Shown: piece by piece, positions 34,926 to 54,016 of the stretch
Position numbering within the stretch: position 1 is the stretch's first letter
Layout: each line of letters opens with the position of its first letter
From: Microbacterium soli
Lineage (GTDB): Bacteria > Actinomycetota > Actinomycetes > Actinomycetales > Microbacteriaceae
DNA: 64,000 nucleotides
Assembly: GCF_039539005.1 (NCBI RefSeq)
Contig: NZ_BAABCP010000001.1
Coordinates: 1,302,001-1,366,000, forward strand
Direction of reading: 5' to 3'
Made by a program: the position numbers and the translations under genes
The notes under the pieces: model-generated
The model's input: the letters and a program-made list of their open reading frames with translations, nothing else
What the model was told of the DNA's origin: nothing
The model's database searches: none

Positions 34926-36406
34926 TGGAGACCTCCGCCCGGCCCTGGTCCGCCCTCTGGGCGCTGCTCATCGGCTTCTTCATGATCCTGATGGACACGA
35001 CCATCGTGTCCATCGCGAACCCGGCGATCCTCGCCGCGTTCGCCGCGGATCTCAGCCTTGTGATCTGGGCGACCAGCGCGTACCTGCTCGCGTACGCCGC
35101 GCCGCTGCTGATCACCGGCCGACTGGGCGACCGCTTCGGTCCGAAGCGGGTCTACCTCGCGGGTCTCGCGGTGTTCACCCTGGCATCGCTGGCCTGCGGG
35201 CTGGCGGGCTCGATCGGGGTGCTGGTGGCGGTCCGTGCCGTCCAGGGCATCGGGGCGGCCATGATGACCCCGCAGACCATGGCCATCATCACGCGCATCT
35301 TCCCTCCGCAGGGTCGGGGCGCGGCGATGGGGCTGTGGGGCAGCGTGGCCGGTGTCGCGACGCTCGTGGGCCCGTTGCTGGGCGGCGTGCTCGTGCAGAC
35401 GCTCGGCTGGGAGTGGATCTTCTTCGTCAACGTGCCCGTGGGCGTGGTCGGCTTCATCGCCGCCTGGCGGCTCGTCCCCGCGCTGTCGACCCGCGCGCAC
35501 CGGATCGACGGGCTCGGGGTCGCGCTCTCGGGGGTCGGGATGCTGTTCCTCGTGTTCGCGATCCAGGAGGGCCGCTCCTTCGACTGGGGCGTCATCGCCG
35601 GGATCGTGAGCATTCCCGGGCTCCTCATCGCCGGCATCGTGCTGATCGTCCTGTTCCTCGTGTGGCAGCGGGTCATGCGCGGCGAGCCGCTGCTGCCGCT
35701 GACGCTGTTCCGGGACCGCAGCTTCTCGCTGTCGAACGCGGCGATCTTCCTCGTCGGCATCGCGATCACGGCCCTGCCGATCCCGCTCGCCTTCTACTTC
35801 CAGGATGCCCGGGGGCTCACCCCCACGGTCGCGGCGCTCATGATCGCGCCCATGGCGGTGGTCTCCGGCATCCTCGGGCCGTACATCGGACGGCTCACCG
35901 ACCGCATCGGACCCCGCTGGGTCACCTGCGGGTGCGCGCTGTCCGCGGCGGGAGCGCTGACCTGGTACGCGCTCTCGCTGAGCGCAGACGCGCCGCTGGG
36001 GATGCTCCTGCTCCCCTCCGCCGTGCTGGGCGTCGGGGTCGCGGGGATCTTCGCCCCGGTCGCCTCGAGCGCGACGCGCAACCTGCCGCGCGAGCTGGCG
36101 GGGGCGGGGTCGGGCGCGTACAGCGCCATCCGCCAGGTCGGGTCGGTGCTGGGCTCGGCGGCCGTCGCTGCGGTGATGGCGATGCGGATCGCGGCCGAGG
36201 CGCCGGGCGCCGCCGGCGCGGGATCCGCCGGGCGCGCTCCCGCGGACGTCGCCGGCTATGCGGCCGCACTCGGTCAGTCGCTCTGGCTGCCGGCATCCGC
36301 GTTCCTGCTGTGCGCGGTCGTGGTGGCGTTCTATCCGCCCCTCGCACGCACCGCATTGATTCAAACTGGATCCAGTATTCAAACGATGAATGGAGGCCGC
36401 CGATGA
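34925..36406 (+). CDS. MFS transporter, DHA2 (14-TM, EmrB/QacA) type
   Basis: 493 residues with about 14 hydrophobic segments. The typical opening (LLIGFFMILMDTTIVSIANP), the motif A-like GRLGDRFGPKRVYLAGL and motif C (WGSVAGVATLVGPLLGG) identify the drug:proton antiporter-2 family. Members export drugs or aromatic compounds. Its ATG shares one base with the LVIVD gene stop. The 3' end of the gene holds the regulon element at 36366-36382, so the last 13 codons encode IQTGSSIQT, which looks unlike a usual transporter tail. The stop overlaps the ATPase start (ATGA). Confidence 0.88.
   Translation: METSARPWSALWALLIGFFMILMDTTIVSIANPAILAAFAADLSLVIWATSAYLLAYAAPLLITGRLGDRFGPKRVYLAGLAVFTLASLACGLAGSIGVLVAVRAVQGIGAAMMTPQTMAIITRIFPPQGRGAAMGLWGSVAGVATLVGPLLGGVLVQTLGWEWIFFVNVPVGVVGFIAAWRLVPALSTRAHRIDGLGVALSGVGMLFLVFAIQEGRSFDWGVIAGIVSIPGLLIAGIVLIVLFLVWQRVMRGEPLLPLTLFRDRSFSLSNAAIFLVGIAITALPIPLAFYFQDARGLTPTVAALMIAPMAVVSGILGPYIGRLTDRIGPRWVTCGCALSAAGALTWYALSLSADAPLGMLLLPSAVLGVGVAGIFAPVASSATRNLPRELAGAGSGAYSAIRQVGSVLGSAAVAAVMAMRIAAEAPGAAGAGSAGRAPADVAGYAAALGQSLWLPASAFLLCAVVVAFYPPLARTALIQTGSSIQTMNGGRR
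36366..36382. promoter_or_regulatory. Regulon element, copy A (before the PotABCD-type importer)
   Basis: CTGGATCCAGTATTCAA matches the consensus TTGGATCCAGWATCCAA at 15 of 17 positions. It lies inside the last codons of the MFS gene and 20 bases before the ATPase ATG. Confidence 0.7.
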
Positions 36407-37533
36407 ACGCATCGGAGAGCACTGCCGGAGGACGGCTGGTCGTCGACGCGCTGAAGAAGGACTACGAGTTCGACGGGACCTCCGTCCCCGTCGTCAAGGA
36501 CGTCACCTTCACCATCGAGCCGGGCATGTTCTATTCGCTGCTGGGACCGTCCGGCTGCGGGAAGACCACCACCCTGCGCTGCGTCGCGGGGCTGGAGCGC
36601 AGCAACGGCGGGCTCATCTCGCTCGACGGCGAGGTGCTGTCCACAGACAGGACGCACGTCACACCCGACAAGCGCGGCATCGGGATGGTGTTCCAGAACT
36701 ACGCGATCTGGCCGCACATGACCGTGTTCGCCAATGCGGTGTTCCCGCTGCAGGTGTCCGGCACGAAGGTCTCCAAGGCCGAGGCCCGCGCGCGGGCGAT
36801 GGACGCGCTCGAGCTCGTGCAGCTCGACCACCTCGCCCAGCGCCCCGCCACGGCCCTCTCCGGGGGTCAGCAGCAGCGCCTGGCGCTGGCCAGGGCGCTC
36901 GCCCACCGGCCGCGCCTGCTGCTGCTGGACGAGCCGCTGTCGAACCTCGATGCCAAACTGCGCGACACGATGCGCAACGAGCTGCGCAGCCTGCAGCGCG
37001 AACTGGGCATCAGCGCGCTGTACGTCACGCACGACCAGTCCGAGGCGCTGTCGATGTCGGATCGCGTCGCCGTCATGAACGGCGGCCGCATCGTCCAGGA
37101 GGCGGCTCCTCGGGAGCTCTACGACCGTCCCGCGGACAGGTTCGTCGCCGACTTCGTCGGCAGGGCGAACATGATCGACGCCGTCGTGCAAGACGTCGAC
37201 GGCGCCGGCGACGCGGTCGTCGAGGCCCTGGGCACCAGCCTGCGCACCCCGGTCCCCGGCGGCGTCTCCGTCGGGGAGGGCGTCACCCTCACCGTCCGCC
37301 CCGAGAGCCTGCGCTGGCACGAGGGCGCCCAGGACCGGCCCAACGTGCTGCCCGCACGGGTCGTGCGCGTCGAATTCCTCGGAGAGATCGTCGAGTACGA
37401 GACGGAGATCGTCTCCGGCGGCGAGGTGGTCGGCACCCTCGTCGGTCGCGGGGCGCCCATGGCGAGCCCTCCCGAGGGCGGGCGGGTCTTCGTCGAACTG
37501 GCGCCGCACGCCTGCCGGGTGCTCGCCGCATGA
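36403..37533 (+). CDS. ABC importer ATPase, PotA/FbpC type
   Basis: 376 residues. Walker [11 protein letters not shown]-loop FQNYAIWPHMTV, signature LSGGQQQRLALARAL and Walker B LLLLDEPLSNLD are all present. A C-terminal TOBE-like domain (VTLTVRPESLRWHEG) follows. It energises the importer with the following receptor and permease genes. The YAIWPHMTVF sequence is typical of the iron, putrescine, thiamine and phosphonate importer group. The ATG overlaps the MFS stop by four bases, but the element before it suggests its own promoter. Confidence 0.92.
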   Translation: MNASESTAGGRLVVDALKKDYEFDGTSVPVVKDVTFTIEPGMFYSLLGPSGCGKTTTLRCVAGLERSNGGLISLDGEVLSTDRTHVTPDKRGIGMVFQNYAIWPHMTVFANAVFPLQVSGTKVSKAEARARAMDALELVQLDHLAQRPATALSGGQQQRLALARALAHRPRLLLLDEPLSNLDAKLRDTMRNELRSLQRELGISALYVTHDQSEALSMSDRVAVMNGGRIVQEAAPRELYDRPADRFVADFVGRANMIDAVVQDVDGAGDAVVEALGTSLRTPVPGGVSVGEGVTLTVRPESLRWHEGAQDRPNVLPARVVRVEFLGEIVEYETEIVSGGEVVGTLVGRGAPMASPPEGGRVFVELAPHACRVLAA

Positions 37534-37601
37534 ACCCCACACCCACCCACAACCCATCACCACCCGAATCACACCGATGTATGTCAGAGAGGACATCGAC
37601 C

Positions 37602-38765
37602 ATGAAGAGAACGCTGGGACTCGCCGCGCTCGCCGCGGCCACCGCACTCGTGCTGTCCGGCTGCGGCACGCAGCAGGCGCAGGAGGCGCCCACCGCCGTG
37701 GAGCCGAGCGGCGGTGCCGCGGACGTCGTCTGCGACGCCGTCGAGGTCGGCGCGATCACGCGCTGCGAGAACTTCTACGAGGACTACTGGCCGGAGATCG
37801 ACCGTCAGCTCGACGCCCTCTATGAGAAGGCGAAGGAGACCGACGGCGGTCGGCTCGTCATCTGGGACTGGTACGAGCTCTCGCCCGAGATCATCGCCCA
37901 GTTCAACAAGCGCTTCCCCGACATCACCATCGAGACGCAGGGGCTCACCTACAATCTGTCGTCGGCGATCATCTCGGCGAAGGCCACCGGCTCCCGCAAC
38001 ACGGATGTCGTGTCGGGCTCCATCACCTCGATGGCCGCCATGTACGACGAGGGCTTCTGGGAGAAGGTCGACTGGACCACCTTCGGCGTCCCGGCGGAGT
38101 ACCTCACCATCGGCGCCCCCGAGCTCATGCCCGACAGCATCAACGGCACGCTCATGCAGTACAACACCGACAAGGTCGACGCGGTGCCGGACAGCCTCGA
38201 CGGGCTGCGGGACCCGCAGTACAAGGGCAAGGTCTCGGTCGCGGGCTACAACGCCATCGTCTTCGCCGGCTACGGCATGGCCGAGGGCGAGGACGCGATG
38301 CTGAAGCTCATCGACGACCTCTCCTCCTCCGGCAACCTCAAGCTGCTCGAGGACCAGGGCGCCCCGCTCTCCAGCGGCGACGTCCCGATCGCGCTGAACC
38401 AGACCCTCTACAACCCGAACCCGGTGCTGAAGGTGGCGCCGTTCGAGCACTCCGGCGTGTTCGCGCAGTTCTCCGGCGTCAACTCGGATGCCGAGAACAA
38501 GCCCGGCGCCATGCTGTGGGCGCTGTGGAACGCGTACGACCCGGACTGGATCGAGCTGCGCATGACCGATGAGAACTTCTCCAGCACGCAGGTGCCGTTC
38601 GCGGGCCTGCCCACCTCGGTGTTCGATCAGGCGACGGGTCTCATGAAGGCCAACGCGGACGCCCTGCTGCAGGGGCTGGCGAACGGCGCCGAGACCGAGA
38701 CGCAGGACACCCGTGACCAGTGGCAGGCGATGATCAACGCCGCCGACGAGGCGCTGAACGGATAA
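37602..38765 (+). CDS. ABC importer substrate-binding lipoprotein, family 1/6
   Basis: 387 residues. A lipoprotein signal ends in LSGCGTQQ. The mature part has GGRLVIWDWYELSPEIIAQF and PDITIETQGLTYNLSSAIIS, features of Fe(III)/putrescine/2-aminoethylphosphonate-type receptors. The ligand is not evident; no tyrosine pair typical of ferric-iron binding can be assigned. ATG 37602 is preferred to the in-frame ATG at 37581 because of the GAGAGGA ribosome binding site between them. The TAA stop shares its last base with the permease ATG. Confidence 0.88.
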   Translation: MKRTLGLAALAAATALVLSGCGTQQAQEAPTAVEPSGGAADVVCDAVEVGAITRCENFYEDYWPEIDRQLDALYEKAKETDGGRLVIWDWYELSPEIIAQFNKRFPDITIETQGLTYNLSSAIISAKATGSRNTDVVSGSITSMAAMYDEGFWEKVDWTTFGVPAEYLTIGAPELMPDSINGTLMQYNTDKVDAVPDSLDGLRDPQYKGKVSVAGYNAIVFAGYGMAEGEDAMLKLIDDLSSSGNLKLLEDQGAPLSSGDVPIALNQTLYNPNPVLKVAPFEHSGVFAQFSGVNSDAENKPGAMLWALWNAYDPDWIELRMTDENFSSTQVPFAGLPTSVFDQATGLMKANADALLQGLANGAETETQDTRDQWQAMINAADEALNG

Positions 38766-40657
38766 TGATGTTCCAGGCAGGACGGACCACGGGGCGCAGA
38801 CGTCGCCCCTCCACCATGACGACGGCGATGATCGTCTCCGGCGCGGCCGTGTTCATCCTTCTCGCCGTTCCGCTGATCGTTCAGCTGATCACGGCGTTCC
38901 GTGGTCCGTTCCTGCCCTTCGGGGTCTCCTCCGCCAAGTGGGGCGTGGAGAACTTCGTCACCCTCTGGGAGCTCCGCGAGGACTTCTGGGGAGTGCTCGG
39001 CGCCACGGGCGCGTTCGTGGGCGGCTCGACGGTGCTCTCCCTGCTGATGGCGTTCGGGCTCGCCTGGGTCACGGTGCGCACGGATGCGCCGATGCGCCGC
39101 ATCATCTCGGTGCTCGTGATCGTGCCCTACATCATCCCGCCGATCGTCAAGGCGCAGGCCTACCTGCTGATGCTGTCGCCGGAATCCGGTGTGCTCAACC
39201 AGCTGCTGCGCCTGCTGCCGTTCCTGGGCGAGACGCCCATCGACCCCTACGCGTTCCCGACGATGATCTTCATCCAGTCGCTGACCAACGTGACCTTCCC
39301 GTTCCTGATGATCGTGCCGATCCTCACCAACATGGACGGCTCGCTCGAGGAGTCGGCGCGCGTGTCCGGCGCCTCCTGGCCCAAGACCCTGCGCAGGGTG
39401 ACCCTGCCGATGCTGTGGCCCGGCCTCCTGGGCGTGGCGGTGCTGACGTTCATCCTGGGGCTGGGGAGCCTGGAGGTGCCGCTGCTGTTCGGGCAGGACT
39501 CCGGCAAGAACATCTTCGCCCTCAAGCTGTGGACCCTGATCAGCTCGAGCGCGGGAGAGCTGCCGCAGTACGGACTGGCCGCCGCCTGGGGTCTGGTGTT
39601 CCTCGTCATCACCACGATCGCCTTCGCCGTGTACCTGCGCGCCACGCGGGACGCCGAGCGCCGGGCATCCGTGTCCGGAAAGGGCTTCCGCCCGTCGACC
39701 ATGCGGATGGGCGGCTGGCGGGTGCCCGTGCTGACGCTCGTCGGCGTGTACGTGCTGCTCACCGGCATCCTCCCCCTGCTCTCGCTGCTGTGGGGGGCGA
39801 TCACGCCGTTCCCCATCGCCTTCTCGATCGACGCCCTCGTGAGCCAGACGCGGTGGAGTTCGTTCGGCGCCGTGCTCGGCGACCCGGAGTTCTGGGCGTC
39901 GCTGGGGCGCACCGTGATCATCGCCGGGGTGAGCTCGACGCTCGCCGTGACGGTGGCGACCGTGCTCGCCTACGGCATCGCGCGCTCGAAGAAGACGGGA
40001 TGGGTGAAGGCGGCCGACCTGTTCGCCTCCTCGTCGGTCGCGATCCCCGCCACCATCGCGGGTTTCGCGACGTTCCTCACCTTCATGGTGCTCAACCCGA
40101 TCATCCCGCTGGCGGGCACGCTCATCGCCCTCATCATCGCCTACGCGTACCGGGTGTCGATCGCGTACCGCACCTCGTACAGCGCGACGCTGCAGATCAA
40201 GCCCGAGCTGGAGGAGGCGGCACTGGTGAGCGGCGCGGGCCGGTTCGCGACGTTCCGGCGGGTGGTGGCGCCGCTGCTGCTGCCGTCGGCGATGGCGGTG
40301 TGGATCCAGATGTTCATCCTCGCCACCAACGAGTTCACGCTGCCCGCGTTCCTGGCGACACCGGCGTCGCGGCCGCTGTCGATGTACATCTACGCGACGA
40401 TCAGCCCCCGTGCGGCGCAGCTGTACTCGCCCGACAAGGGCGCGGCGATGGCGCTGATCTTCACGCTCATGGTCTTCGCGATCGGCTACGGGACGCAGGC
40501 CCTGCTGGCCAGGCGCGCCATCGGTCGCGCACGGAGGGCGACGGCGTCCGCCGCCGTCCCGGTGCTCCCCGGCGCCCGTGCCGAGGACGGCGGCGGCGGC
40601 CTGTCCACCACGGTCACGGTGGCCGTGCGACGACGGCGCGACGGCGCGGAGGACTGA
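38765..40657 (+). CDS. ABC importer double permease (fused two-domain, FbpB/ThiP type)
   Basis: 630 residues with about 12 hydrophobic segments in two homologous halves. Each half has an EAA loop: EESARVSGASWPKTLRRVTL in the first and EEAALVSGAGRFATFRRVVA in the second. One chain therefore supplies both channel halves, as in FbpB and ThiP. It completes the importer encoded by the two preceding genes. The last 25 codons are alanine/glycine-rich and cytoplasmic. Confidence 0.92.
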   Translation: MMFQAGRTTGRRRRPSTMTTAMIVSGAAVFILLAVPLIVQLITAFRGPFLPFGVSSAKWGVENFVTLWELREDFWGVLGATGAFVGGSTVLSLLMAFGLAWVTVRTDAPMRRIISVLVIVPYIIPPIVKAQAYLLMLSPESGVLNQLLRLLPFLGETPIDPYAFPTMIFIQSLTNVTFPFLMIVPILTNMDGSLEESARVSGASWPKTLRRVTLPMLWPGLLGVAVLTFILGLGSLEVPLLFGQDSGKNIFALKLWTLISSSAGELPQYGLAAAWGLVFLVITTIAFAVYLRATRDAERRASVSGKGFRPSTMRMGGWRVPVLTLVGVYVLLTGILPLLSLLWGAITPFPIAFSIDALVSQTRWSSFGAVLGDPEFWASLGRTVIIAGVSSTLAVTVATVLAYGIARSKKTGWVKAADLFASSSVAIPATIAGFATFLTFMVLNPIIPLAGTLIALIIAYAYRVSIAYRTSYSATLQIKPELEEAALVSGAGRFATFRRVVAPLLLPSAMAVWIQMFILATNEFTLPAFLATPASRPLSMYIYATISPRAAQLYSPDKGAAMALIFTLMVFAIGYGTQALLARRAIGRARRATASAAVPVLPGARAEDGGGGLSTTVTVAVRRRRDGAED

Positions 40658-40712
40658 GCGCACCACGACGGATGCCGGGATCCGTCGCCGTGCGTCACAG
40701 TATCCGCTATTG

Positions 40713-40729
40713 TTGGATCCAGTATCCAA
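40713..40729. promoter_or_regulatory. Regulon element, copy B (before fgd-fbiD-fbiA)
   Basis: TTGGATCCAGTATCCAA is a full match to the consensus, with perfect TTGGAT/ATCCAA arms. It directly follows a -10-like TATTGT at 40708-40713. An extra CAGTATCC half-site lies at 40698-40705. The fgd start is 147 bases downstream. Confidence 0.78.
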
Positions 40730-40875: not shown

Positions 40876-41886
40876 ATGGCACTGAGACTCGGATACAAGG
40901 CGAGTGCTGAGCAGTTCGATCCGCGCGAGCTCGTGGAGATCTCCGTGGAGGCGGAGAGGCACGGCATGGAATCGGTGTTCGCGAGCGACCACTTCCAGCC
41001 CTGGCGTCACACCGGCGGCCACGCGCCCTTCTCGCTGACCTGGCTCGCCGCCGTGGGCGAGCGCACCTCGTCGATACGGCTCGGGACCTCGGTGCTCACC
41101 CCGACGTTCCGGTACAACCCGGCCGTGCTCGCGCAGGCCTTCGCGAGCCTCGGCTGCCTGTACCCGGAGCGGATCATCCTCGGCGTCGGATCGGGGGAGG
41201 CGCTCAACGAGATCGCCACCGGGTTCCAGGGCGCGGGCGAGCAGACCTGGCCCGAGTTCCGGGAGCGCTACGCGCGCCTGCGCGAGTCGGTGCGGTTGAT
41301 GCGCGCGCTGTGGACGGGGGAGCGCACGTCCTTCGACGGCGAGTACTACTCCACGCACGACGCGTCGATCTACGACGTGCCGGCCGGCGGCGTGCCGATC
41401 TACATCGCCGCCGGCGGCCCGCAGGTCGCGAAGTACGCCGGGCGCGCCGGCGACGGGTTCATCTGCACCTCCGGCAAGGGCCGTGAACTTTACGAGGACC
41501 GGCTGATGCCCGCCGTGCGCGAGGGCGTGGAGCTCTCGGAGCGTCCGTTCGACGACTACGACCGGATGATCGAGATCAAACTCTCCTACGAGGAGACGCA
41601 GGAGGCGGCGATGGAGAACACCAGATTCTGGTCGCCGCTGTCGCTGTCGAAGGAGCAGAAGCACGACATCACCGACCCGGTCGAGATGGAGCAGGCCGCC
41701 GATGCGCTGCCGCTGGAGACCATCGCGAAGCGCTGGATCGTCGGCAGCGACCCGGACGAGGTCGTGGCGCAGATCCGGCAGTACGTGGACTGGGGCTTCA
41801 ACCACCTGGTCTTCCACGCCCCCGGTCACGACCAGCGCCGGTTCCTGCGGCTGTTCGAGCGCGACATCGCCCCCCGTCTGCGCTGA
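40876..41886 (+). CDS. fgd: F420-dependent glucose-6-phosphate dehydrogenase
   Basis: 336 residues. It closely follows mycobacterial FGD1: [71 protein letters not shown] and the end [21 protein letters not shown] stretch. It oxidises glucose 6-phosphate while reducing cofactor F420, so it supplies F420H2 to other enzymes in the cytoplasm. An AAGGAGAGTT ribosome binding site precedes the ATG. It leads the fgd-fbiD-fbiA unit, whose promoter region carries element B. A fully functional F420 economy is therefore expected in this organism. Confidence 0.96.
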
Positions 41887-41922
41887 CCCGTGCGATGGAT
41901 TCTCGAGGGGGGGGAGGCACAC

Positions 41923-42570
41923 ATGAGCGGTCCGGAGCCACCGCGGTGGTCCATCGTGATCCCCGTGAAGGCCGCATCCATCGGCAAGAGCCGACTGCGC
42001 ATCGACGGCGCCGACCATGAGCGGCTGGCGCGTGCGATCGCCCTCGACACCATCCACGCCGCGGCGCGCTGCGCGGCCGTCACCGGCATCCGGGTCGTGA
42101 CGGCGGATGCCGCGCTCCGGCGAGAGCTGGACGGTATCCGCGGGGTGACGGTCGTCGCGGACTCCGGCGAGGGCCTGAACGCCGCCCTGCGCACCGGACT
42201 CGCGGCGGCGGGCGAGCGCACTGATCGCGCGGTGCTGCTGGGAGATCTACCCGCCCTGCAGACCGTCGAGCTGGAGGTGGCCCTCGGCGCGGCGGCGGGG
42301 TTCGAGCGCGCGTTCGTGCCGGATGCCGACCTCACCGGCACGGTGCTCGCGACCGCCCGCCGCGGCGTGGAGCTGACGCCGCTGTTCGGCCCGCGATCGG
42401 CCGACGCGCATCGTCGGGCGGGATTCGTGCCCGTGGCGATGCCCGCCCGGTCCGGGCTGCGCCGAGACGTCGACCTGGCCGCGCACCTGCGCGCCGTGCG
42501 ACGACTGGGGCCTCGCACCCGTGCCGCACTGCCCGCCGGTGCTCGCGCCGCGTCCCAGGCTTCCGCATGA
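41923..42570 (+). CDS. fbiD: Phosphoenolpyruvate guanylyltransferase (FbiD/CofC)
   Basis: 215 residues of the CofC/FbiD nucleotidyltransferase family. The opening IVIPVKAASIGKSRLRI is the nucleotide-binding motif and AVLLGDLPALQTVELEVAL carries the GDLPAL signature. It activates phosphoenolpyruvate (2-phospholactate in archaea) with GTP for F420 synthesis. The start ATG 41923 follows a GGGGGGAGG ribosome binding site, 36 bases behind fgd. The stop overlaps the fbiA start. Confidence 0.93.
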   Translation: MSGPEPPRWSIVIPVKAASIGKSRLRIDGADHERLARAIALDTIHAAARCAAVTGIRVVTADAALRRELDGIRGVTVVADSGEGLNAALRTGLAAAGERTDRAVLLGDLPALQTVELEVALGAAAGFERAFVPDADLTGTVLATARRGVELTPLFGPRSADAHRRAGFVPVAMPARSGLRRDVDLAAHLRAVRRLGPRTRAALPAGARAASQASA

Positions 42571-43577: not shown

Positions 43578-43583
43578 TTCGGC

Positions 43584-44381
43584 TCAGGAGGGCGATCCCG
43601 TGCGGGAGCCGAAGACGATGAGGGGACGGCCGGTGCGGGGATGCGCGAGCACGTCGGCGTCCACGCCCCACACCGCGGAGATGAGCGCCGGGGTGAGCAC
43701 CTCGGCGGGGGTGCCGGATGCCCGGACGCGGCGATCCGCGAGCACGACGACCCGGTCGGCGTGGGCGGCCGCGTGATTCAGGTCGTGCAGCGCCGCCATG
43801 ATCGCCATGCCGTCGCGGGCGAGTCCGCGCAGCAGCGCGAGGGTGTCGAGCTGAGCGCGGATGTCGAGGTGATTCGTCGGCTCGTCGCACAGCAGCAGGG
43901 ACGGCTGCTGTGCGAGCGCGCGGGCGAGGTTGATGCGCTGGCGCTCGCCGCCGGAGAGCGTCGCGGCGTCCTGCGCGGCGAAGGGCAGGGCGCCCGCGCG
44001 GGCGAGGCTCGCGTCGATGACGGCGTCGTCATCGGCATCCGCTGCGAACCAGCCCTGGTGCGGCACCCGGCCGAGGGCGACGACGTCGCGGCCGGCGAGA
44101 CCCTCGGCGGCGACCCACTCCTGCTCGACCAGGGCCACGCGCTGCGCGCGCTCGCGGCGGCGCATGGCGGAGAGGGCGCGGCCGTCGAAGCCGATGTCTC
44201 CGGCATCCGCCTGCAGGGCCCCGACGACCAGTCGCAGCAGCGTGCTCTTGCCGGCGCCGTTCGCGCCCAGCAGTGCGGTGACCTCGCCTCGGGATGCCGT
44301 GATGTCGACGCCGTCGACGATCATCCGGCCGGCGCGGGAGAACCGCAGCCGGAAGAGGTCGAGACCCGCGGGATCGCTCAT
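43584..44381 (-). CDS. Proposed F420-0 ABC importer, ATPase
   Basis: 265 residues, FecE/BtuD class: Walker A LLGANGAGKSTLL, signature LSGGERQRINLARALA, Walker B LLLCDEPTNHLD. By itself it could serve a siderophore or cobalamin importer. The neighbourhood of fgd, fbiD and fbiA fits the actinobacterial cassette that TIGRFAMs proposed to import F420-0, usually next to F420 genes. Its start overlaps the permease stop (ATGA). Confidence 0.8.
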   Translation of the reverse strand: MSDPAGLDLFRLRFSRAGRMIVDGVDITASRGEVTALLGANGAGKSTLLRLVVGALQADAGDIGFDGRALSAMRRRERAQRVALVEQEWVAAEGLAGRDVVALGRVPHQGWFAADADDDAVIDASLARAGALPFAAQDAATLSGGERQRINLARALAQQPSLLLCDEPTNHLDIRAQLDTLALLRGLARDGMAIMAALHDLNHAAAHADRVVVLADRRVRASGTPAEVLTPALISAVWGVDADVLAHPRTGRPLIVFGSRTGSPS

Positions 44382-45487: not shown

Positions 45488-46497
45488 GGGAGCTCGGCGA
45501 GGTCGTCGACGAGCGCGGCCACCGCATCGACGTTGCGGATCCCGGCCTCCGTCGCGGGGAAGTCGACGATGAGGAAGCGCTTCTCGCGCACGGCGTCCAG
45601 CTGCGCGGTGATGGGGTTCGACCTGAGCCGCTCGATCTTCGATTCCGCGGTGTTCCACGCCGCATCGACGAGCACGATCACGTCGGGGTTCGCGGCGGCG
45701 ACGAGCTCCCACGAGGTCGAGGTCCAGGTGTCGTGCACGTCGGCGAAGACGTTCGAGAGCCCGGCCGCCGACATGATCATCTCCGGCGCCCCGATCCCGG
45801 CGCCCACGTACGGCTGGTCCGTGCCGGAGGAGTACCACACGGCGGTGAGGTCACGCGTGTCGGGCGCGATGTCCGCCAGCTGCGCGCGCTGCCGCGCCAC
45901 GAGGTCCGCCGCGGCGTCCCGCTCGCCGACGAGCCTTCCGGCCTCCTCGAAGCCCGCGAAGACCGCGTCGAAGGTGAGCGGGTCGGGCATGTAGCCCGCC
46001 GCCTTGCAGGCGGCGGGCGCGACGTAGGTGGTCACGCCGAGGCGCTGCAGCTCGTCGCGCTCGCCGACGCCCTCCGTCGAGAAGTTGGACTCCCATCCGG
46101 CGAACACCAGATCGGGCTCCAGGGCCAGCACCGACTCCCGCGAGGGGAGCTTGTCCGAGAGCACCGGTATGCCCTCGCCCTCATCGGCGAGGTCCGCGGG
46201 CAGCGGCCCGTCGGAGAAGGCGGAGCCGATGATCCGGTCGCCGGCTCCGAGGGCGAGCAGCAGCTCGAGCGGCGACGACTTGATCGCGATGATGCGCTGG
46301 GCGGGATGCTCGACGGTCACCTCCGTGCCGCAGTTGTCGATGGGGGCGGATGCGATGGCATCGGCGGCACCGTCGGCAGCGGCCGGACCGGCGTTGCCGC
46401 CGGCCGGCGCGGCGGGATCGATGCCGCATCCGGCGAGGGCGACGACGAGGAGCAGGGCGGGGGCGACGCCGATGACGGCGCGGCGGATGGGGGACAT
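45484..46497 (-). CDS. Proposed F420-0 ABC importer, binding lipoprotein
   Basis: 337 residues. The lipoprotein signal ends in VALAGCGI. The mature TroA/FecB-type domain has RIIAIKSSPLELLLALGAGD and the PAACKAAGYMPDPLTFDAV segment that I associate with the proposed F420-0 receptor rather than with siderophore receptors. It heads a three-gene cassette on the minus strand. The double element at 46617-46664, in its promoter, ties its expression to fgd and the catabolic genes. A cobalamin or siderophore role is the alternative. Confidence 0.75.
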   Translation of the reverse strand: MSPIRRAVIGVAPALLLVVALAGCGIDPAAPAGGNAGPAAADGAADAIASAPIDNCGTEVTVEHPAQRIIAIKSSPLELLLALGAGDRIIGSAFSDGPLPADLADEGEGIPVLSDKLPSRESVLALEPDLVFAGWESNFSTEGVGERDELQRLGVTTYVAPAACKAAGYMPDPLTFDAVFAGFEEAGRLVGERDAAADLVARQRAQLADIAPDTRDLTAVWYSSGTDQPYVGAGIGAPEMIMSAAGLSNVFADVHDTWTSTSWELVAAANPDVIVLVDAAWNTAESKIERLRSNPITAQLDAVREKRFLIVDFPATEAGIRNVDAVAALVDDLAELP

Positions 46498-46616: not shown

Positions 46617-46664
46617 TAACTTGGATCCAGAATCCAAACAAGACTGGATTCTGGATCCAAGTTA
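46617..46664. promoter_or_regulatory. Double regulon element in the divergent promoter region (copies C1 and C2)
   Basis: TTGGATCCAGAATCCAA at 46621-46637 and the inverted copy at 46644-46660 (one mismatch) together form a perfect 20-bp inverted repeat around an eight-base spacer. On the minus strand TTGTTT and TATGAT (-10, 46618 to 46613) are 17 bases apart with C1 filling the spacer, so binding there would block the importer promoter. The rightward promoter is less clear (CATGAT at 46668). Confidence 0.78.
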
Positions 46665-46739: not shown

Positions 46740-47690
46740 ATGCAGACAACAGCCGTCTCATTCTTCAGCGAGGGTCACCGCATCGCCGCCGAATGGCGCA
46801 CCCCCGACGCCCCCGGCCCGTACCGTGCGATCGTCCAGGGCCCCGGCTGGCTCGGCCTCAAGGACGCCAAGCTCTACGTCCGCTATCACGAGGCGCTGAT
46901 CGAGGCGGGCTTCGCCGTGCTCGTGATCGACTACCGTGGGTTCGGCGACTCCGAGGGCGACCGCGGCTACCTGTCGCCGGCCTGGCAGCTGCAGGACCTC
47001 GTCAACGCCGTCAGCTACCTCACGACCCGCGACGACGTCATCGCCGACGCGATCGGCGTGTTCGGCACCGGCGGCACGGGCGGCGGGAACGCCGTGCTGC
47101 TGGCCGACGCGGACCCGCGCATCAAGGCCGCCGTCAGCCAGGTCCCCGTCGCGGACGGCGAGGACTGGCTGCACCGCATGCGCAGCGAGTCCGAATGGCT
47201 CGACTTCCTGAAGGCCATCGACGAGGACCGCCGGGCGCGGGTCACGACCGGTCAGGGGCGCATCGTGCACCCTCGCGAGGAGATCATGATCCCCTCGGCC
47301 GAGCGCCGCGTCACCAAGGTCAAGGCCGACGTCGACGGCCGCATCCCCACCGCCGTGCCGTTCGCCTGCGCGGAGGGCATCATCGCCTACCGCCCCATCG
47401 ACGCCGCCGCGCGCCTGACCACCCCGCTGCTCGTGATCGGGGTCGAGGGCGACGCCACCACCCCCACCGACCACGCCGAAGCGCTGTACGAGGCCGCGAA
47501 GGGGCCCAAGCAGCTCATCCTGCAGCGGCACACGACCCACTACGCCGCCTACGACACGTACTGGGAGCAGACCACCCCCGTGATCGTCGACTGGTTCGAC
47601 CGCCACGTCCGCCCCGCGCACCTCATCCACCGCTCCGTCGCGTCTCCGGCATCCGGCGACGCCATCACCCCCCAGGAGGTCCAGCGATGA
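46740..47690 (+). CDS. Alpha/beta hydrolase with an unusual nucleophile motif
   Basis: 316 residues of the alpha/beta hydrolase fold: VLVIDYRGFGDSEGDRGYLSP, IGVFGTGGTGGGNAVL and a late aspartate (VEGDATTPTDHAEAL) and histidine (RHTTHYAAYD). The nucleophile elbow, normally G-x-S-x-G, reads G111-G112-T113-G114-G115, so threonine replaces serine, or the protein is not a serine hydrolase. It is encoded right behind element C and four bases overlap the cyclic amidohydrolase gene. The role could be C-C, ester or amide hydrolysis in the same pathway. Confidence 0.82.
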   Translation: MQTTAVSFFSEGHRIAAEWRTPDAPGPYRAIVQGPGWLGLKDAKLYVRYHEALIEAGFAVLVIDYRGFGDSEGDRGYLSPAWQLQDLVNAVSYLTTRDDVIADAIGVFGTGGTGGGNAVLLADADPRIKAAVSQVPVADGEDWLHRMRSESEWLDFLKAIDEDRRARVTTGQGRIVHPREEIMIPSAERRVTKVKADVDGRIPTAVPFACAEGIIAYRPIDAAARLTTPLLVIGVEGDATTPTDHAEALYEAAKGPKQLILQRHTTHYAAYDTYWEQTTPVIVDWFDRHVRPAHLIHRSVASPASGDAITPQEVQR

Positions 47691-49096
47691 CCATCGAACT
47701 CAAGATCACCGGCGGCACCGTCGTCACGCCGTCCGGTCCCGTCGAGGCGGACCTGCTCGTCGCCGACGGCAGGGTCGCCGGCATCGTGGCATCCGGCATC
47801 GGCGTCGAGGCGGACCGCACGATCGACGCGACCGGCAAGCTCGTGCTGCCCGGCATGGTCGACGTGCACGTGCACACCCGCGAGCCCGGCTACGAGCACA
47901 AGGACGACGTGTACACCACGAGTCTGCAGGCCGCCGCCGGCGGCGTGACCACCATCTTCGGGATGCCGAACCTCAAGCCCCCGACGACCGACGTCGCCAC
48001 CCTGACCGACGTGTTCGAGCGCTACGAGAGCAGCTCGATCGTGGATTGGAACCACAACCCGGCCCCGACGAAGTTCGACGAGATCGCGGGCATGAGCGAG
48101 CTGGGCATCCGCGCCTACAAGATCTACATGGTCGTCGACACCGGCCGCGACTACCCGCACCCCTCGGGCACGGGCATCCACGACCACGGCCACCTGCTCG
48201 AGATCATGGACCACATCGCCAGGACCGGGAAGCGCTTCATCGTGCACCCCCACGACCAGGCGCTGATGGATTACATCGAGGGCCAGTACCTCGCCCGCGG
48301 GGAGAACACCCCGCAGGGATACGCCTCCGCCTACGCCGCGCGCGAAGGCGTCATCTGGGACACCGCGATCGACGTCGTGCTGCGGCTGGCGGAGGCGTCC
48401 GGATGTCCTGTGCACATCGCGCACATCCAGACGCGCCGGTCGATCGAGGCCGTCCGCCGAGCCAAGGCCCGCGGCATCGACGTGACCTGCGAGGTCAACC
48501 ACTGGGCGCCGTTCCTGTCCACCTGGAACGACGTCGAGACCCTCGGTCCCTACGCGCTGAGCTACTACGTCCCCGACGACAACCGCGCCGCCGTGTGGGA
48601 GGGCATGCGCGACGGCACCATCGACATGGCCGCCAGCGACCACGCTCCGCACACCCGTGAGGAGAAGGAGATCGGCTGGACGAAGATGTGGAGCTCGCAC
48701 ACGGGCACCCCCGGCATCCAGTACTACTACGAGCTCATGCTCGACGCCGTCAACAAGGGCGAGCTGGAGCTGCAGCGCGCGATCGACATGGTCGCGCACA
48801 TCCCCGCGGCGAAGTTCGGGCTGGCGGGCGTGAAGGGCGCACTGACCGTCGGGGCGGATGCCGACATCGTCATCGCCGACATGGCGCAGGAGTGGACGAT
48901 CACCAACGACGACGTCCTCTCCAAGACCGGCTGGACGCCGTACGACGGACGCTCCATCAGCGCGCGCATCGTGCGCACCCTCGTGCGGGGCACCGATGTC
49001 TACGTCGGCACGGAGGTCGTCGGCGACCGCACGCACGGAAAGCTCGCCGCCTCGGCGGAAGACAGGGCGGCGCTGGCCGCCGCAGAAGGGAACTGA
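47687..49096 (+). CDS. Cyclic amidohydrolase (dihydroorotase/allantoinase/hydantoinase type)
   Basis: 469 residues. The binuclear metal centre is complete: His61 and His63 in DVHVHTREPG, carboxylated lysine candidate Lys145 in RAYKIYM, His187/189 in FIVHPHD, a further histidine in PVHIAHIQT and the aspartate in ASDHAPHT. Such enzymes open cyclic amides such as hydantoins, dihydropyrimidines, dihydroorotate or allantoin. No pyrimidine-synthesis genes surround it; it sits between an alpha/beta hydrolase and a luciferase-like enzyme, so a catabolic role on a ring amide is likely. The exact substrate is unknown. Confidence 0.88.
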   Translation: MTIELKITGGTVVTPSGPVEADLLVADGRVAGIVASGIGVEADRTIDATGKLVLPGMVDVHVHTREPGYEHKDDVYTTSLQAAAGGVTTIFGMPNLKPPTTDVATLTDVFERYESSSIVDWNHNPAPTKFDEIAGMSELGIRAYKIYMVVDTGRDYPHPSGTGIHDHGHLLEIMDHIARTGKRFIVHPHDQALMDYIEGQYLARGENTPQGYASAYAAREGVIWDTAIDVVLRLAEASGCPVHIAHIQTRRSIEAVRRAKARGIDVTCEVNHWAPFLSTWNDVETLGPYALSYYVPDDNRAAVWEGMRDGTIDMAASDHAPHTREEKEIGWTKMWSSHTGTPGIQYYYELMLDAVNKGELELQRAIDMVAHIPAAKFGLAGVKGALTVGADADIVIADMAQEWTITNDDVLSKTGWTPYDGRSISARIVRTLVRGTDVYVGTEVVGDRTHGKLAASAEDRAALAAAEGN

Positions 49097-49097
49097 C

Positions 49098-50072
49098 ATG
49101 AAATTCGGACTGCTGCTGCCGCACTTCGGCGAGGAGGCGAGCAGGGAGAAGCTGCTCGAGGGGTCCAAGCTCGCCGAGAGCTACGGCTTCGACTCCGTGT
49201 GGGTGCGCGATCACCTCGTGTTCGAGCCGCACGGGGAGATGGAGAAGCCCAACCGCACCTTCTACGACGCGCTCACCACGCTCACCGCGATCGGCGCCGT
49301 CACCGAGAAGCTCGAGCTGGGCACGGGCTCGCTCATCCCGTTCCGCCACCCGCTGGTCACCGCCCTGATGGCGGGCACCATGACTCAGCTGCTCGGTCCG
49401 CGCCTCATCCTCGGGTTCGGCGCCGGCACCTTCGACCACGAGTTCGAGGCCATCGGCTGGGGCGACCGGGATCGCGTCGAGCTGGTGCGCTCGAACGCCG
49501 AGATCCTCCGTCGCGTGTTCACGGAGAACGACGTCAGCTACGACGACGGCGTGTTCTCCTTCGACAACGTCACCATCGAGCCCAAGCCCGTCGGCGGAGC
49601 CGTGCCGTTCTGGTACTGCGGTGCGACCCCCCGCTCGGCCCGCCTCGCGGCGGAGTTCTGCGACGGCTGGATGCCGGGACGCACGGGCCTGGCGACGATG
49701 GAGAAGCGCATCAAGACCATGCGCGACATCACCGACGAGAACGGCCGGAAGATGCCGACCGTCGCCGTGATTCCGCCGACCTCCATCGAGGACACCCGTG
49801 AGGAGGCCCTCAAGCACGTGAACATCCCCGGCCTGCTGGCGTGGGCCAACAAGGCCAAGTTCGCCGTCAAGCCGCCGTCCGGCAGCTTCGAGACCGTGGA
49901 GGACCTGAAGGGCCAGCTCATCGTCGGCAGCCCCGACGAGGCCGTCGAGCAGGTGAAGGAGTTCGAGGCCATCGGCACCGAGCACCTGGTGTTCGACTTC
50001 CGCTTCAAGTTCGACCGCTTCTTCGAGCAGATCGAGCTGCTCGGCACCGAGGTGCTGCCGAAGCTGCGCTGA
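49098..50072 (+). CDS. LLM class oxidoreductase, possibly F420-dependent
   Basis: 324 residues with the luciferase-like barrel: KFGLLLPHFGEEASREKLLE, GFDSVWVRDHLVF, EKLELGTGSLIPFRHPL, LLGPRLILGFGAGTFDHEFE and VPFWYCGATPRSARLAAEF. The opening and the WVRDHL strand resemble F420-dependent members, and the regulon also contains fgd and F420 synthesis genes. FMN use cannot be excluded. In the operon with a cyclic amidohydrolase, it could oxidise, reduce or open a ring. It starts one base behind the amidohydrolase stop. Confidence 0.82.
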   Translation: MKFGLLLPHFGEEASREKLLEGSKLAESYGFDSVWVRDHLVFEPHGEMEKPNRTFYDALTTLTAIGAVTEKLELGTGSLIPFRHPLVTALMAGTMTQLLGPRLILGFGAGTFDHEFEAIGWGDRDRVELVRSNAEILRRVFTENDVSYDDGVFSFDNVTIEPKPVGGAVPFWYCGATPRSARLAAEFCDGWMPGRTGLATMEKRIKTMRDITDENGRKMPTVAVIPPTSIEDTREEALKHVNIPGLLAWANKAKFAVKPPSGSFETVEDLKGQLIVGSPDEAVEQVKEFEAIGTEHLVFDFRFKFDRFFEQIELLGTEVLPKLR

Positions 50073-50078
50073 TCCCGA

Positions 50079-50304: not shown

Positions 50305-51147
50305 ATGAGTGATCACCCCCCTACCGTCTCCGCACCGCAGCGCGCGCCGGAACGTCCGCTGATCGACGTGCGGAACCTGACCGTCCGCTACAGCATCTCG
50401 CGCACCGGCCAGACCCTCACCGCCGTCGAGAACGTCAATCTGACGATCGAGGCCGGTGAGTTCGTCACCGTGCTGGGCCCGTCCGGCTGCGGCAAGACGA
50501 CGGTGATGAACGTCATCGCCGGGCTCGTGCGGGCCACCGAGGGCGAGGTGCTCGTCGACGGCGTGCCCGTCGACGGGCCGAGCCCCGACCGCGCCGTCGT
50601 GTTCCAGGACTACGCGCTGCTGCCGTGGCGGACGGTCTTCGACAACGTGCGCTTCGGCGTCGAGATGCAGAAGCAGTACCGCGGCGTCGACATGCACGAC
50701 AAGGTGCAGGAGACGATCGAGATCGTCGGGCTGAAGGGCTTCGAGAAGTCCTATCCGCGCGAGCTGTCCGGAGGCATGCAGCAGCGCGTGGGACTCGCCA
50801 GAGCGCTCGTGGGCGGCCCTCGCGTGCTGCTCATGGACGAGCCGCTCGGTGCTGTCGACGCGCTCACGCGTGAGGTGATGCGCGCCGAGCTGGAGAGGAT
50901 CATCCAGGCCACCGGGTCGACGGTCGTGTTCATCACCCACTCCATCGAGGAGGCCATCCTCCTGGGCGATCGCATCGTCGTGTTCAAGAGCCATCCCGGA
51001 TCCGTGCTGGAGGTGCACGAGACGAACATGAGCAGGCCGCGCAGCGAGCGCGGCGCTCAGGGCGACCCGCGCTACATCGAGCTGCGCGATCACCTGTGGG
51101 CCGCGCTCGAGCGCGAGGCCACCGACGCGGTGCGGGCGCGGGCATGA
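50305..51147 (+). CDS. ABC importer ATPase, taurine/nitrate (SsuB/TauB) type
   Basis: 280 residues. Walker [14 protein letters not shown]-loop [19 protein letters not shown], signature [17 protein letters not shown] and Walker [17 protein letters not shown] identify the TauB/SsuB group. It powers the importer formed with the next two permeases and the NMT1-type receptor at 52884. The stop overlaps the next start by four bases. Confidence 0.93.
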
Positions 51148-51977
51148 GCGCGACCGCGAGTCTCGCCGCGGTCCGCGCGGGCAGCGGACGAGCCCGGCCG
51201 CGGACCTCATGGCTGCGCCGCCGCGGGCTCTGGCTCTCCCTCGTCGATCTCGTGATCATCGTCGGCATCTGGCATCTCGTCGTCGTCACGTTCGGTCTGG
51301 TGAGCAGAGTGTTCCTCCCCGCCCCCGCCGACGTCGTGCTGGGCTTCGGTCAGCTGGCGGAGGCCGGCGTGCTGTGGTCGAACATGGGGTTCAGCGCCGT
51401 GACGTGGCTGATCGGCTTCGGCCTCGGCACCCTCGCCGGCATCGTCACGGGTCTGGTCGTGGGCAGTGTGCACGTCGTCTACAAGCTGGCGATGCCGGTC
51501 CTCTGGGCGGCCTGGGCGACGCCGCTGGTGGCGATCCAGCCCATCATCGGCGTCTGGTTCGGCTTCGGGATGACCCCCAACGTCGTGCTGGTGTTCCTCA
51601 GCACGGCGATCCCCATCTCGCTGAACACCGTCGCCGGCGTCGCGGGCGTGAGCCCCTCGATCCTCCGCGCGGCGACGGTGTACGGCGCCGGCCCTGTCCA
51701 GGCGTACCTGAAGGTGCGGCTGCCGTGGACGTTCCCGTACATCGTCGGCGGCATCCGTCTGGCCATCCCCACCAGCCTGATCGGGCTGCTCATCGGGGAG
51801 ATGGTGTCGAGCCCCATGGGCATGGGGTCGCTCATCGTGACGTCGCTGTCGCGGTTCCGCACGAATCAGGCGTTCTCGGCGATCATCTTCTTCATCGTCG
51901 TCTCGGTGGTCCTCGTCTCGGTCGCGGACCGCCTCGAGCGCCGAACCGGTCGCTGGCGGGAGGTGGACGCCCGATGA
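51144..51977 (+). CDS. ABC importer permease 1, SsuC/TauC type
   Basis: 277 residues with about six hydrophobic segments ([20 protein letters not shown] first). The coupling loop is [21 protein letters not shown]. This importer has two different permease genes where most SsuABC systems have one, so the channel is probably a heterodimer. ATG 51144 overlaps the ATPase stop, and the stop overlaps the second permease start. Confidence 0.9.
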
Positions 51978-52804
51978 GCGCGGCAGCCGTCATCGCGGAT
52001 CGGCAGCGCCCGCACCGGATGCGGATGCTGTGGGATGCGACACGCTGGCAGCTCGCGATCCTCGTCGAGCTGGTCGTCATCCTGCTGGTGTGGCAGTACC
52101 TGCAGTCCGCCGTGGAGTTCTGGAGCCCGGTCTTCCTGCCCCCGCCCTCGGAGATCTGGGCGGCGCTGACCGACATGGCGGGCTCGGGAGTGCTGTGGGG
52201 GAGCCTCGCGTACAGCGCCGGCAACGCGATCGCCGGTTTCCTGCTGGCGGCGCTCTTCGGCGTGTTCACCGGACTGCTCCTGGGGTCGTCGAGGCTGTTC
52301 TACGACATCGTCGGCGGTCCGTTCTGGACGCTGTACGCCACCCCGCGCATCGCGTTCCAGCCGCTGCTGGTGCTGTGGATGGGCTTCGGCAGCGGTCCCA
52401 AGATCCTCATCATCTTCCTGATGGCGTACTTCCCCGTCGCGATCAGCACGATGGACGGCATCCGCGGCGTGGACCGCTCGCTCGTGCGCGCGGCGCGCGT
52501 GTACGGGGCGTCCCGCGCGGAGGTCTTCTTCAAGGTGCAGCTGTGGGCGGCGCTCCCGCTCATCCTGACCGGGCTGCGCATGGGCGTCGCGCGGGCGATG
52601 ATCGGCATCGTCGTCGGGGAGTTCATCGGCGGATCCGAGGGGCTGGGCCACCTGATCCGCAAGAAGGCCGGCGAGCTCGAGCTCGGAGCCGCGATAGGGA
52701 TCACGATCCTGCTGGTCGTGATCGCGATCGTCGGCATGGCGATCCTCAACCTCGTCAAGAGGATCGTCGCCCCCTGGTACGTCGAGGGCGTCGCGCGCGG
52801 GTGA
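51974..52804 (+). CDS. ABC importer permease 2, SsuC/TauC type
   Basis: 276 residues, homologous to permease 1. Its coupling loop is LVRAARVYGASRAEVFFKVQL. The first helix is AILVELVVILLVWQYLQSA. It probably pairs with permease 1. An 80-base gap separates it from the receptor gene. Confidence 0.9.
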   Translation: MSAAAVIADRQRPHRMRMLWDATRWQLAILVELVVILLVWQYLQSAVEFWSPVFLPPPSEIWAALTDMAGSGVLWGSLAYSAGNAIAGFLLAALFGVFTGLLLGSSRLFYDIVGGPFWTLYATPRIAFQPLLVLWMGFGSGPKILIIFLMAYFPVAISTMDGIRGVDRSLVRAARVYGASRAEVFFKVQLWAALPLILTGLRMGVARAMIGIVVGEFIGGSEGLGHLIRKKAGELELGAAIGITILLVVIAIVGMAILNLVKRIVAPWYVEGVARG

Positions 52805-52883
52805 TCCGCGGGCGCACCCTCACCTCCGGCGTGCACCCGCACGTCGCATCGCAGGACGGAACAGAAACAGAAAGAAGGTACTC

Positions 52884-53906
52884 ATGAAGAAGAGCATCAT
52901 CGCCGCTGCTCTGGCGGGCACCCTCCTCCTGAGCGGATGCTCGGGATCTCCCGGAGGGAGCGGGGAGCAGGCCCCCGAGGTCTCGGTGGACACCCCGATC
53001 GGCGCGCCGGAGACCACGGAACTCACGATCGCGCTGTCGGCGCCGAACCTCGACAGCCAGGCTCCGGTGTACATCGCGCTCGACAAGGGCTACTACGAGG
53101 ACGAGGGCCTGACGATCAACGTCATCGACGCGGACAACATCAGGGAGGGGCTGATCGGCGGCAGCCTCGACGTCGCCGTCGAGGACGCCGCGGCGGTCGT
53201 GGACGCCGCGGTGGCGGGCACCGGGCTGAAGATCGTCGCGGGCTACCGGGCCCGGCAGCCGTACATCATCGCCGCGAGCGCCGACATCCAGGACCCCTCG
53301 GATCTCGAGGGTCGGCAGATCATCCTCGGCGACGCACCGGGTGTGCCCATCAACGACGTCCGCATGGACATCATGGCGCAGGAGGGCGGCTTCGACATCC
53401 GCGACGTCGGCTGGAAGGACGTCTACCCTCCTGGATTCTCCAACGCCTGGGTGGAGAATTTCGTGGCGGGGCAGGTGGCGCTCACGCCGGTGTTCCCGCG
53501 GCACATCCCCATCGTGGAGGAGGCGGGAGGGCACTTCATCATCAACACGATGAAGGAGTGGCCGAATGACGTCCTGGCGGCCTCGGAGAGCTGGATCTCG
53601 GCGAACCCGAACACGCTCGCCCGGTTCATCCGGGCGACCACGAAGGGCATGGCGCTGTACAAGGACCTGTCCCAGCAGGAGTACGTGCAGTCGATGATGG
53701 AGAAGGCGGATTTCAAGATCACCGACACCGAGCGCGAGCCCGAGATCTATGCGTACGGGCCCGAGCTGTACAACGAGAACATGCTGATGCTCGAGGAGAG
53801 CCGGTACGCCGAGGCGCTGTCGGCGTTCGGGATGGACATGCCGGAGTGGAGCACGTTCGTGGACACGACGCAGCTCGAGCGGGCGCAGAAGTCGCTCGAC
53901 GAGTGA
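52884..53906 (+). CDS. ABC importer substrate-binding lipoprotein, NMT1/SsuA type
   Basis: 340 residues. The lipoprotein signal ends in LLLSGCSGS. The mature part has the NMT1/THI5-like pattern: APNLDSQAPVYIALDKGYYE, GLIGGSLDVAVEDAAAVVDA and GYRARQPYIIAAS. Receptors of this class bind taurine, alkyl sulfonates, nitrate, pyrimidines, riboflavin or phthalate-like aromatics. The ligand is probably the substrate of the surrounding catabolic genes. An AGAAAGAAGG ribosome binding site precedes the ATG. Confidence 0.9.
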   Translation: MKKSIIAAALAGTLLLSGCSGSPGGSGEQAPEVSVDTPIGAPETTELTIALSAPNLDSQAPVYIALDKGYYEDEGLTINVIDADNIREGLIGGSLDVAVEDAAAVVDAAVAGTGLKIVAGYRARQPYIIAASADIQDPSDLEGRQIILGDAPGVPINDVRMDIMAQEGGFDIRDVGWKDVYPPGFSNAWVENFVAGQVALTPVFPRHIPIVEEAGGHFIINTMKEWPNDVLAASESWISANPNTLARFIRATTKGMALYKDLSQQEYVQSMMEKADFKITDTEREPEIYAYGPELYNENMLMLEESRYAEALSAFGMDMPEWSTFVDTTQLERAQKSLDE

Positions 53907-53986
53907 TGTCGGGGCTCCGGGCGGCGGTCGTCGGACGCCGCTGCCCGGCGCCCGTACTCCTGCGGGAGGCGAATCGCTCCTGCAGT

Positions 53987-54016
53987 TTGGATCCAGAATC
54001 CAATGAATGCTAGTGT
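53987..54016 (+). promoter_or_regulatory. Regulon element, copy D, overlapping the promoter of the six-gene operon
   Basis: TTGGATCCAGAATCCAA at 53987-54003 is a full consensus match. Its first six bases, TTGGAT, can also act as the -35 box, 18 bases before TAGTGT (54011-54016). A protein on this site would cover the promoter, which supports repression. Confidence 0.8.

Follow-up and report, generated by a model that had tools for sequence, protein, structure and literature searches.

Introduction

FCD-type regulators of the FadR subfamily such as HypR, LldR and NanR share an architecture of GntR and FCD domains, a palindromic operator near the promoters, likely autoregulation and the control of a catabolic pathway together with its transporter. 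In the excerpts of PMC4494728 considered here, the typical operator of this subfamily is given as TKGT-N2/3-ACMA, with exceptions including NanR and BioR. Here we describe a system of this kind in a 64,000-nt stretch of the Microbacterium soli genome (contig NZ_BAABCP010000001.1, positions 1,302,001 to 1,366,000; in the following the window). It consists of the 17-bp inverted repeat TTGGATCCAGWATCCAA, with arms TTGGAT and ATCCAA and a 5 bp spacer, and of an FCD-type GntR regulator encoded at 23074-23805, to which this operator, judged by comparison between genomes, very probably belongs. The system differs from the HypR, LldR and NanR type by a Tyr instead of His in the FCD 'FH' motif and by a regulon that includes cofactor supply. 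Among the matches listed from the open-access literature the exact 17-mer was not found, the matches being the 10-mer TTGGATCCAA in unrelated papers, and neither was an F420-linked GntR regulon.

Results and discussion

Five operator copies confined to the window

The operator sites and the regulator gene are located as follows.

36366..36382, plus strand: operator with 2 mismatches, 20 bp ahead of the start of the ABC ATPase gene; membership least certain
40713..40729, plus strand: exact operator upstream of fgd-fbiD-fbiA; 1-mismatch counterparts in the relatives G002, G066 and G077
46621..46637, plus strand: exact operator, copy 1 of a divergent promoter; 49% conserved over 26 sequences
46644..46660, minus strand: operator with 1 mismatch, copy 2 of the divergent promoter; 98% identity over 26 sequences, flanks 53-61%
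53987..54003, plus strand: exact operator upstream of the DUF2269-to-LigA operon; counterparts before the alcohol dehydrogenase operon in relatives
23025..23048, plus strand: decayed operator, TTGGATCCAG plus AGGATTCTG, in the gntR promoter
23074..23805, plus strand: FCD-type GntR regulator, proposed operator-binding protein (Pfam GntR and FCD, co-occurrence, tree)

A sequence-only reading of the window had named the first five positions, including the inverted copy at 46644, and all of them were recovered. It had described the copies as exact, which holds for 40713, 46621 and 53987 but not for 46644 and 36366. Moreover it had placed each copy in front of an operon. The operons are as it named them, yet the site at 36366 sits within the final bases of the upstream MFS gene (34925-36406), the ABC ATPase starting at 36403. 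A counterpart of this site is present in G066 and a site 1.4 kb upstream is found in G087; in G002 there is no counterpart at ≤ 3 mismatches before the same ABC ATPase gene. Site 36366 is the weakest member of the regulon. The half-sites which had been proposed for the gntR promoter are likewise present. Read by eye, the letters give a copy with the first 10 bases perfect (23025-23034) and 4 mismatches across 23025-23041, plus AGGATTCTG at 23040-23048.

Chance predicts 0.02 matches to TTGGATCCAGWATCCAA per 64,000-nt window at ≤ 3 mismatches. In the whole genome (3,116,214 bases in 4 contigs) only five matches at ≤ 2 mismatches exist, all of them in the window, and the reversed pattern used as control has none. 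The density was thus rightly regarded as beyond chance, and dozens of unrelated copies elsewhere in the genome, which would have spoken against a regulon, did not appear.

Operator and regulator occur in the same Microbacterium genomes

A site at ≤ 2 mismatches was found in 6/99 genomes of the genus. Five of them, the window genome (G000), G002, G066, G077 and G087, hold 2 to 5 sites each. Exactly the same five genomes encode the F420-type LLM enzyme of the pathway (E 1e-30) and a GntR of 63-100% identity, the next best match having 40%; some GntR match at E 1e-20 is present in 50/99. The proposal that the 17-mer tracks with orthologues of this gntR gene is borne out within the genus. Clustered sites and GntR orthologue are associated with a Fisher p of 1.4e-8, with the genomes treated as independent though they are related. 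In all four genus relatives a site with 2-3 mismatches lies upstream of gntR. In G066 and G077 gntR is on a different contig from the catabolic trio (hydrolase, amidohydrolase and LLM enzyme, see below), and linkage is not evident there.

At the family level, 3/150 genomes (the window's own included) carry a site at ≤ 1 mismatch of a slightly wider pattern, the control giving 0. In G239, one of these genomes, the two sites adjoin a GntR of 60% identity and precede the hydrolase.

Conservation of the operator across genera

We fetched 79 loci by means of the LLM enzyme (labelled L), of which 72 have matches to all three trio genes. The wider operator consensus TTGGATMCRGWATCCAA at ≤ 2 mismatches has 113 matches in 43/79 loci, 110 of them within 400 bp upstream of a mapped gene; TTGGATMCRGWATCCAA was derived from the same loci in which it was counted and close relatives are not independent, so that the count shows conservation, not independent events. 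Forty permuted TTGGATMCRGWATCCAA patterns gave 0.9 matches in the mean and 17 at maximum, the latter from a pattern with the same arms.

When only the arms were considered (≤ 3/12 mismatches, 250 bp upstream of the hydrolase), 55/74 loci had a match; 76 loci were tried, two of which lack the hydrolase gene. Matches extend as far as Mycobacterium, Jiangella, Amycolatopsis and Actinomadura, the individual matches in these genera being weak. TTGTAT-type arms at equally wide spacing occur in distant loci, for example L095 and L051. A second operator flavour, TTGGATACNGTATCCAA, has no inner palindrome, unlike TTGGATCCAG, and only the outer arms are common to both.

The divergent promoter was compared in 26 importer/hydrolase intergenic regions, namely those of 25 fetched loci with the importer divergent from the hydrolase (Microbacterium, Agromyces, PHSC20C1) and of the window. 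The identities to the window given above (98% for site 46644, 49% for site 46621, 53-61% for the flanks) derive from this set. Just downstream of the 46644-type site a -10-like nATGATG is conserved to 60-99%. That the repeats arose by chance or represent a dispersed repeat element instead of operators has next to no probability, given the 0.02 matches expected, their absence from the rest of the genome and the conservation of their promoter position between genera despite diverged flanks. Taken together, these comparisons indicate that the 17-bp motif is a real, conserved operator.

The FCD-GntR as the probable operator-binding protein

Sixteen of the 43 site-bearing loci have a GntR match (34-67%) inside the fetched stretch. 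Among the other 27, L044 and L046 correspond to G066 and G077, L118 was left out and the remaining 24 were tested at the genome level. All 24 genomes encode the GntR (59-74% identity in 20 Microbacterium and Agromyces genomes, 44-47% in 4 others), and in 23/24 a site at ≤ 3 mismatches stands beside the best GntR gene; both results raised our confidence in the GntR as the binding protein. The 25 gntR stretches contain 35 site matches, compared to a mean of 0.05 for 20 permuted patterns. A site with 2-3 mismatches precedes gntR in 7/7 further Microbacterium stretches (L139-L145), as does one with 3 mismatches in L159-L161, and 6/13 Agromyces stretches carry an additional 3-mismatch copy upstream of the gene. 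As would be expected under autoregulation, the operator thus precedes the regulator gene in 4/4 plus 7/7 Microbacterium relatives, while it is decayed in the window.

The arrangement is most compact in Leifsonia Root4 (L077), where GntR, a second LLM enzyme (LLM2), hydrolase, amidohydrolase, LLM, importer, the genes from alcohol dehydrogenase to LigA and CofE form a single run in which gntR, LLM2 and the importer are each preceded by a site. The GntR is the only regulator found in this locus and in Ruania L079; Pfam revealed no other among the unmapped called genes, uncalled genes being possible.

The window GntR combines an N-terminal GntR helix-turn-helix domain (PF00392, 61.4 bits) with a C-terminal FCD domain (PF07729, 68.4 bits), both above cut-off. 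The tree places it in a supported set that has 13 rows (12 different), each from a genome with the trio, and GntRs from site-bearing loci cluster together. The deeper branches are long and uncertain. Four rows which we had labelled as linked (the second GntRs of L064 and L073, both of L095) lie outside this set, as do L105 and others; 4/53 rows had been removed beforehand (two duplicates, one frame-broken, one poor match). The recognition helix reads SR[LIV]P[VI]R[STA]AL in the group of the window GntR versus SRVPVREA[IL] in 7 genus paralogues, which might account for an operator spacing that is not FadR-like. The position of residue 155 in the window GntR, where the FCD 'FH' motif has its His, is a Tyr in 19/19 linked members selected by us, while Phe-His is kept in the one paralogue row shown (L125). 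This His is a metal-site residue and is not required for family membership. The replacement hints at altered or metal-free ligand binding.

The operator could also be owned by the LysR (32310), the LacI (22063) or a regulator elsewhere, with the GntR merely travelling with the island. In line with this, the LysR sits in the same Microbacterium island and the window gntR is 13 kb away from the nearest good site. However, sites and the GntR are present in Leifsonia L077, Ruania L079 and Agromyces soli L099, where the called genes include no relative of LysR or LacI (two short L099 genes are without Pfam match). Sites adjoin gntR in 4/4 and 23/24 genomes, no site lies in the window between the kynurenine operon and the LysR gene, and the GntRs of site-bearing loci group in the tree. 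We consider another owner very unlikely.

Several observations weigh against the FCD-GntR as regulator of a conserved regulon. The window's own gntR site is decayed and the promoter boxes are weak (see below). The half-sites of TTGGAT-N5-ATCCAA are wider apart than those of the subfamily pattern TKGT-N2/3-ACMA, as far as the excerpts of PMC4494728 describe it. The consensus count is partly circular as stated above, and 19/74 loci have no arm match (≤ 3/12 mismatches) upstream of the hydrolase. In the 13 Agromyces stretches the site nearest to gntR lies downstream of it, ahead of the following operon, and no site at ≤ 3 mismatches exists beside the GntR of L162 or beside a second, 55% copy in L163. 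A lone stray site in G022 has no cluster gene in its vicinity, and the single site of G176 adjoins a 38% relative of the CoA-transferase. Nevertheless the assignment to the FCD-GntR appears well supported due to the co-occurrence, the sites adjacent to gntR, the promoter conservation and the lone regulator in Leifsonia and Ruania. The sequence-only reading, which had proposed the same protein, gains support from these comparisons.

An extra half-site beside GntR palindromes is mentioned in the excerpts of PMC4494728; here, TTGGATCCAG can be read as a 10-bp palindrome that is accompanied, at ~7-12 nt from the centre, by a further ATCCAA box.

Promoter context suggests a repressor

A formal sigma-70 scan of 36000-54200 returned one site (0.7 expected), which is away from the operators. 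A looser promoter script detected a TATTGT box that overlaps the 40713 site by the first base of the latter, as well as TATGAT (minus strand) and CATGAT (plus strand) flanking the 46621/46644 pair, and no box for 36366, 53987 or gntR. The promoter boxes described earlier at two of the copies are thus seen with the looser script at 40713 and 46621/46644, but not with the formal scan.

Since the positions of the sites relative to the promoter elements suit a repressor, the FCD-GntR most likely acts as such. Alternatively, it might act as an activator, either at all copies or at part of them with repression at the rest. The distance from site to start codon, which ranges from 20 bp (36366) to 146 bp (40713), and the weak promoter boxes would fit an activator. 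In the best conserved promoter, however, the site is just upstream of nATGATG, i.e. over the expected -35/spacer region, and the 40713 site overlaps the edge of its box. Moreover, characterised FCD-GntR catabolic regulators are mostly repressors. Activation is hence rather unlikely. As repressor, a GntR dimer would sit on or beside the promoters and be released on binding a compound of the pathway. Release would switch on, as one regulon, the pathway, its transport and its cofactor supply.

Genes of the proposed regulon

The regulon would comprise the following genes.

36403..40657, plus strand: ABC importer, PotA/Phn-type (ATPase 36403-37533, SBP_bac_6-like protein 37602-38765, fused permease 38816-40657)
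40876..43577, plus strand: Fgd (F420-dependent glucose-6-phosphate dehydrogenase), CofC/FbiD and CofD/FbiA, all three above NCBIfam cut-off
43584..46497, minus strand: putative F420-0 ABC importer with ATPase, permease and substrate-binding protein (TIGR03868 and TIGR03869 above cut-off)
46740..50072, plus strand: catabolic trio of alpha/beta hydrolase, hydantoinase/dihydroorotase-like amidohydrolase and F420-type LLM oxidoreductase (family scans, PDB sequence searches)
50368..53906, plus strand: NMT1/SsuA-type ABC importer, without own operator here but with operator in Leifsonia L077
54053..58805, plus strand: DUF2269, Zn-type alcohol dehydrogenase, class III CoA-transferase, Amidohydro_2, LigB and LigA (family scan)

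Sites 46621 and 46644 separate the trio from the putative F420-0 importer, which is transcribed divergently. In PDB sequence searches the trio comes out close to L-hydantoinase/dihydroorotase, to F420 or luciferase-like enzymes and to various alpha/beta hydrolases, while the Amidohydro_2 protein has the unassigned BB4693 and aryl decarboxylases as neighbours; no substrate appears to follow from these similarities. The substrate probably has a cyclic amide or ureide. It would be processed by the hydrolase, the hydantoinase-like amidohydrolase and the F420-type LLM enzyme, followed by alcohol dehydrogenase, CoA-transferase, amidohydrolase and aromatic ring cleavage by LigAB.

The riboflavin/lumichrome lum cluster, as far as it is described in the excerpts of PMC12746152, resembles this gene set as an actinobacterial ring breakdown with hydrolytic opening and extradiol cleavage. 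According to the same excerpts the lum pathway requires P450, thiamin decarboxylase, xanthine-oxidase-like and Rieske enzymes, none of which is among the window regulon genes scanned. Lumichrome was considered as pathway substrate and dropped.

The minus-strand operon 23848-32177 resembles a kynureninase/3-hydroxyanthranilate meta-cleavage pathway. It was rejected as regulon member, there being no site at ≤ 3 mismatches. The operon is kept near gntR in Microbacterium relatives, also without operator; the LysR gene is at 32310-33206.

Permeases and binding protein of the NMT1-type importer (51252-53906) are 67-80% identical to Leifsonia L077 but only ~30-44% to the Microbacterium genes at the same place. 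By these identities the importer of the window is a transporter swap. ARAGORN reports a tRNA-Arg (gcg) at 51496-51578 inside the permease gene 51252-51977, which is probably false. In Microbacterium sp. MYb62 (L048) extra genes follow the LLM gene, including two ABC importer sets, each preceded by an operator (14303-14319 and 19469-19485 of that locus).

Possible F420 supply by precursor salvage

Binding protein and permease of the putative F420-0 importer match the NCBIfam F420-0 cassette (TIGR03868/03869/03873) above cut-off. The ATPase differs by falling below (TIGR03873, 338.3 bits; cut-off 372.4), and the cassette stands here in a catabolic regulon with CofC/CofD and with a putative cargo.

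A profile search for CofG/FbiC gave 0 matches in the window genome (99.97% complete), whereas 52/99 genus genomes have a match above cut-off. Of the five cluster genomes, FbiC is present only in G087; G002 and G077 show weak partial matches far below cut-off. CofE of the window genome is at G000:C1:1653839, outside the regulon, and the single CofD detected is the regulon copy. Because of these three observations, the missing CofG/FbiC match, the distant CofE and the only CofD within the regulon, the F420 genes are read as precursor salvage.

The importer binding protein is above cut-off in 7/99 genomes, six of which have no FbiC above cut-off. A CofD search of 20 chosen genomes detected CofD in 5/5 cluster genomes, where the G087 gene stands near FbiC and not in the cluster, and in 3/3 further FbiC genomes, but in 0/10 genomes lacking both FbiC and importer. 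In G087 import and synthesis genes occur together, so both can coexist. G004 and G013 (loci L134 and L135) have importer, CofE and Fgd, no CofG above cut-off and no CofD, which makes them candidates for obligate import of F420-0 or F420.

We give even chances to an inducible salvage in a bacterium unable to make the deazaflavin FO. FO (or F420-0) set free by neighbouring cells would be imported and then finished by CofC/CofD/CofE, both import and finishing being under the same repressor as the F420-dependent pathway. Cofactor supply would then consist of precursor import, CofC/CofD and Fgd reducing F420. As the cargo of the importer, FO or F420-0, is something we infer, a tentative but somewhat less probable alternative is that it carries F420-0 or F420 and not FO, with CofC/CofD acting on FO from an unrecognised route. 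This is in keeping with the NCBIfam family name and with G004 and G013, where only F420-0 or F420 would serve. On the other hand, CofC/CofD adjoin the importer in G000, G002, G066 and G077 and would be useless if F420-0 alone arrived; moreover G000 holds two diverged importers which may differ in cargo. The simplest reading would be a salvage of F420-0 or F420 in G004 and G013 and of FO as well in the window genome.

The window genome has a second F420 locus (L133, G000:C1:1648001-1666000) with LLM, CofE, an 83% Fgd copy and the diverged F420-0 importer. No operator at ≤ 3 mismatches was found in it.

Biological meaning

The comparison provides an operator/regulator pair that is ready for testing, for a widespread actinobacterial pathway in which F420 uptake and finishing would be coupled to the demand of catabolism. 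Where FbiC is missing while CofC/CofD/CofE and an importer are retained, natural auxotrophy for F420 precursors is predicted, and an exchange of deazaflavins between bacteria thereby becomes open to feeding experiments. If true, the salvage would mean a physiological role for the F420-0 transporter family and turn F420 into a good that is shared within bacterial communities.

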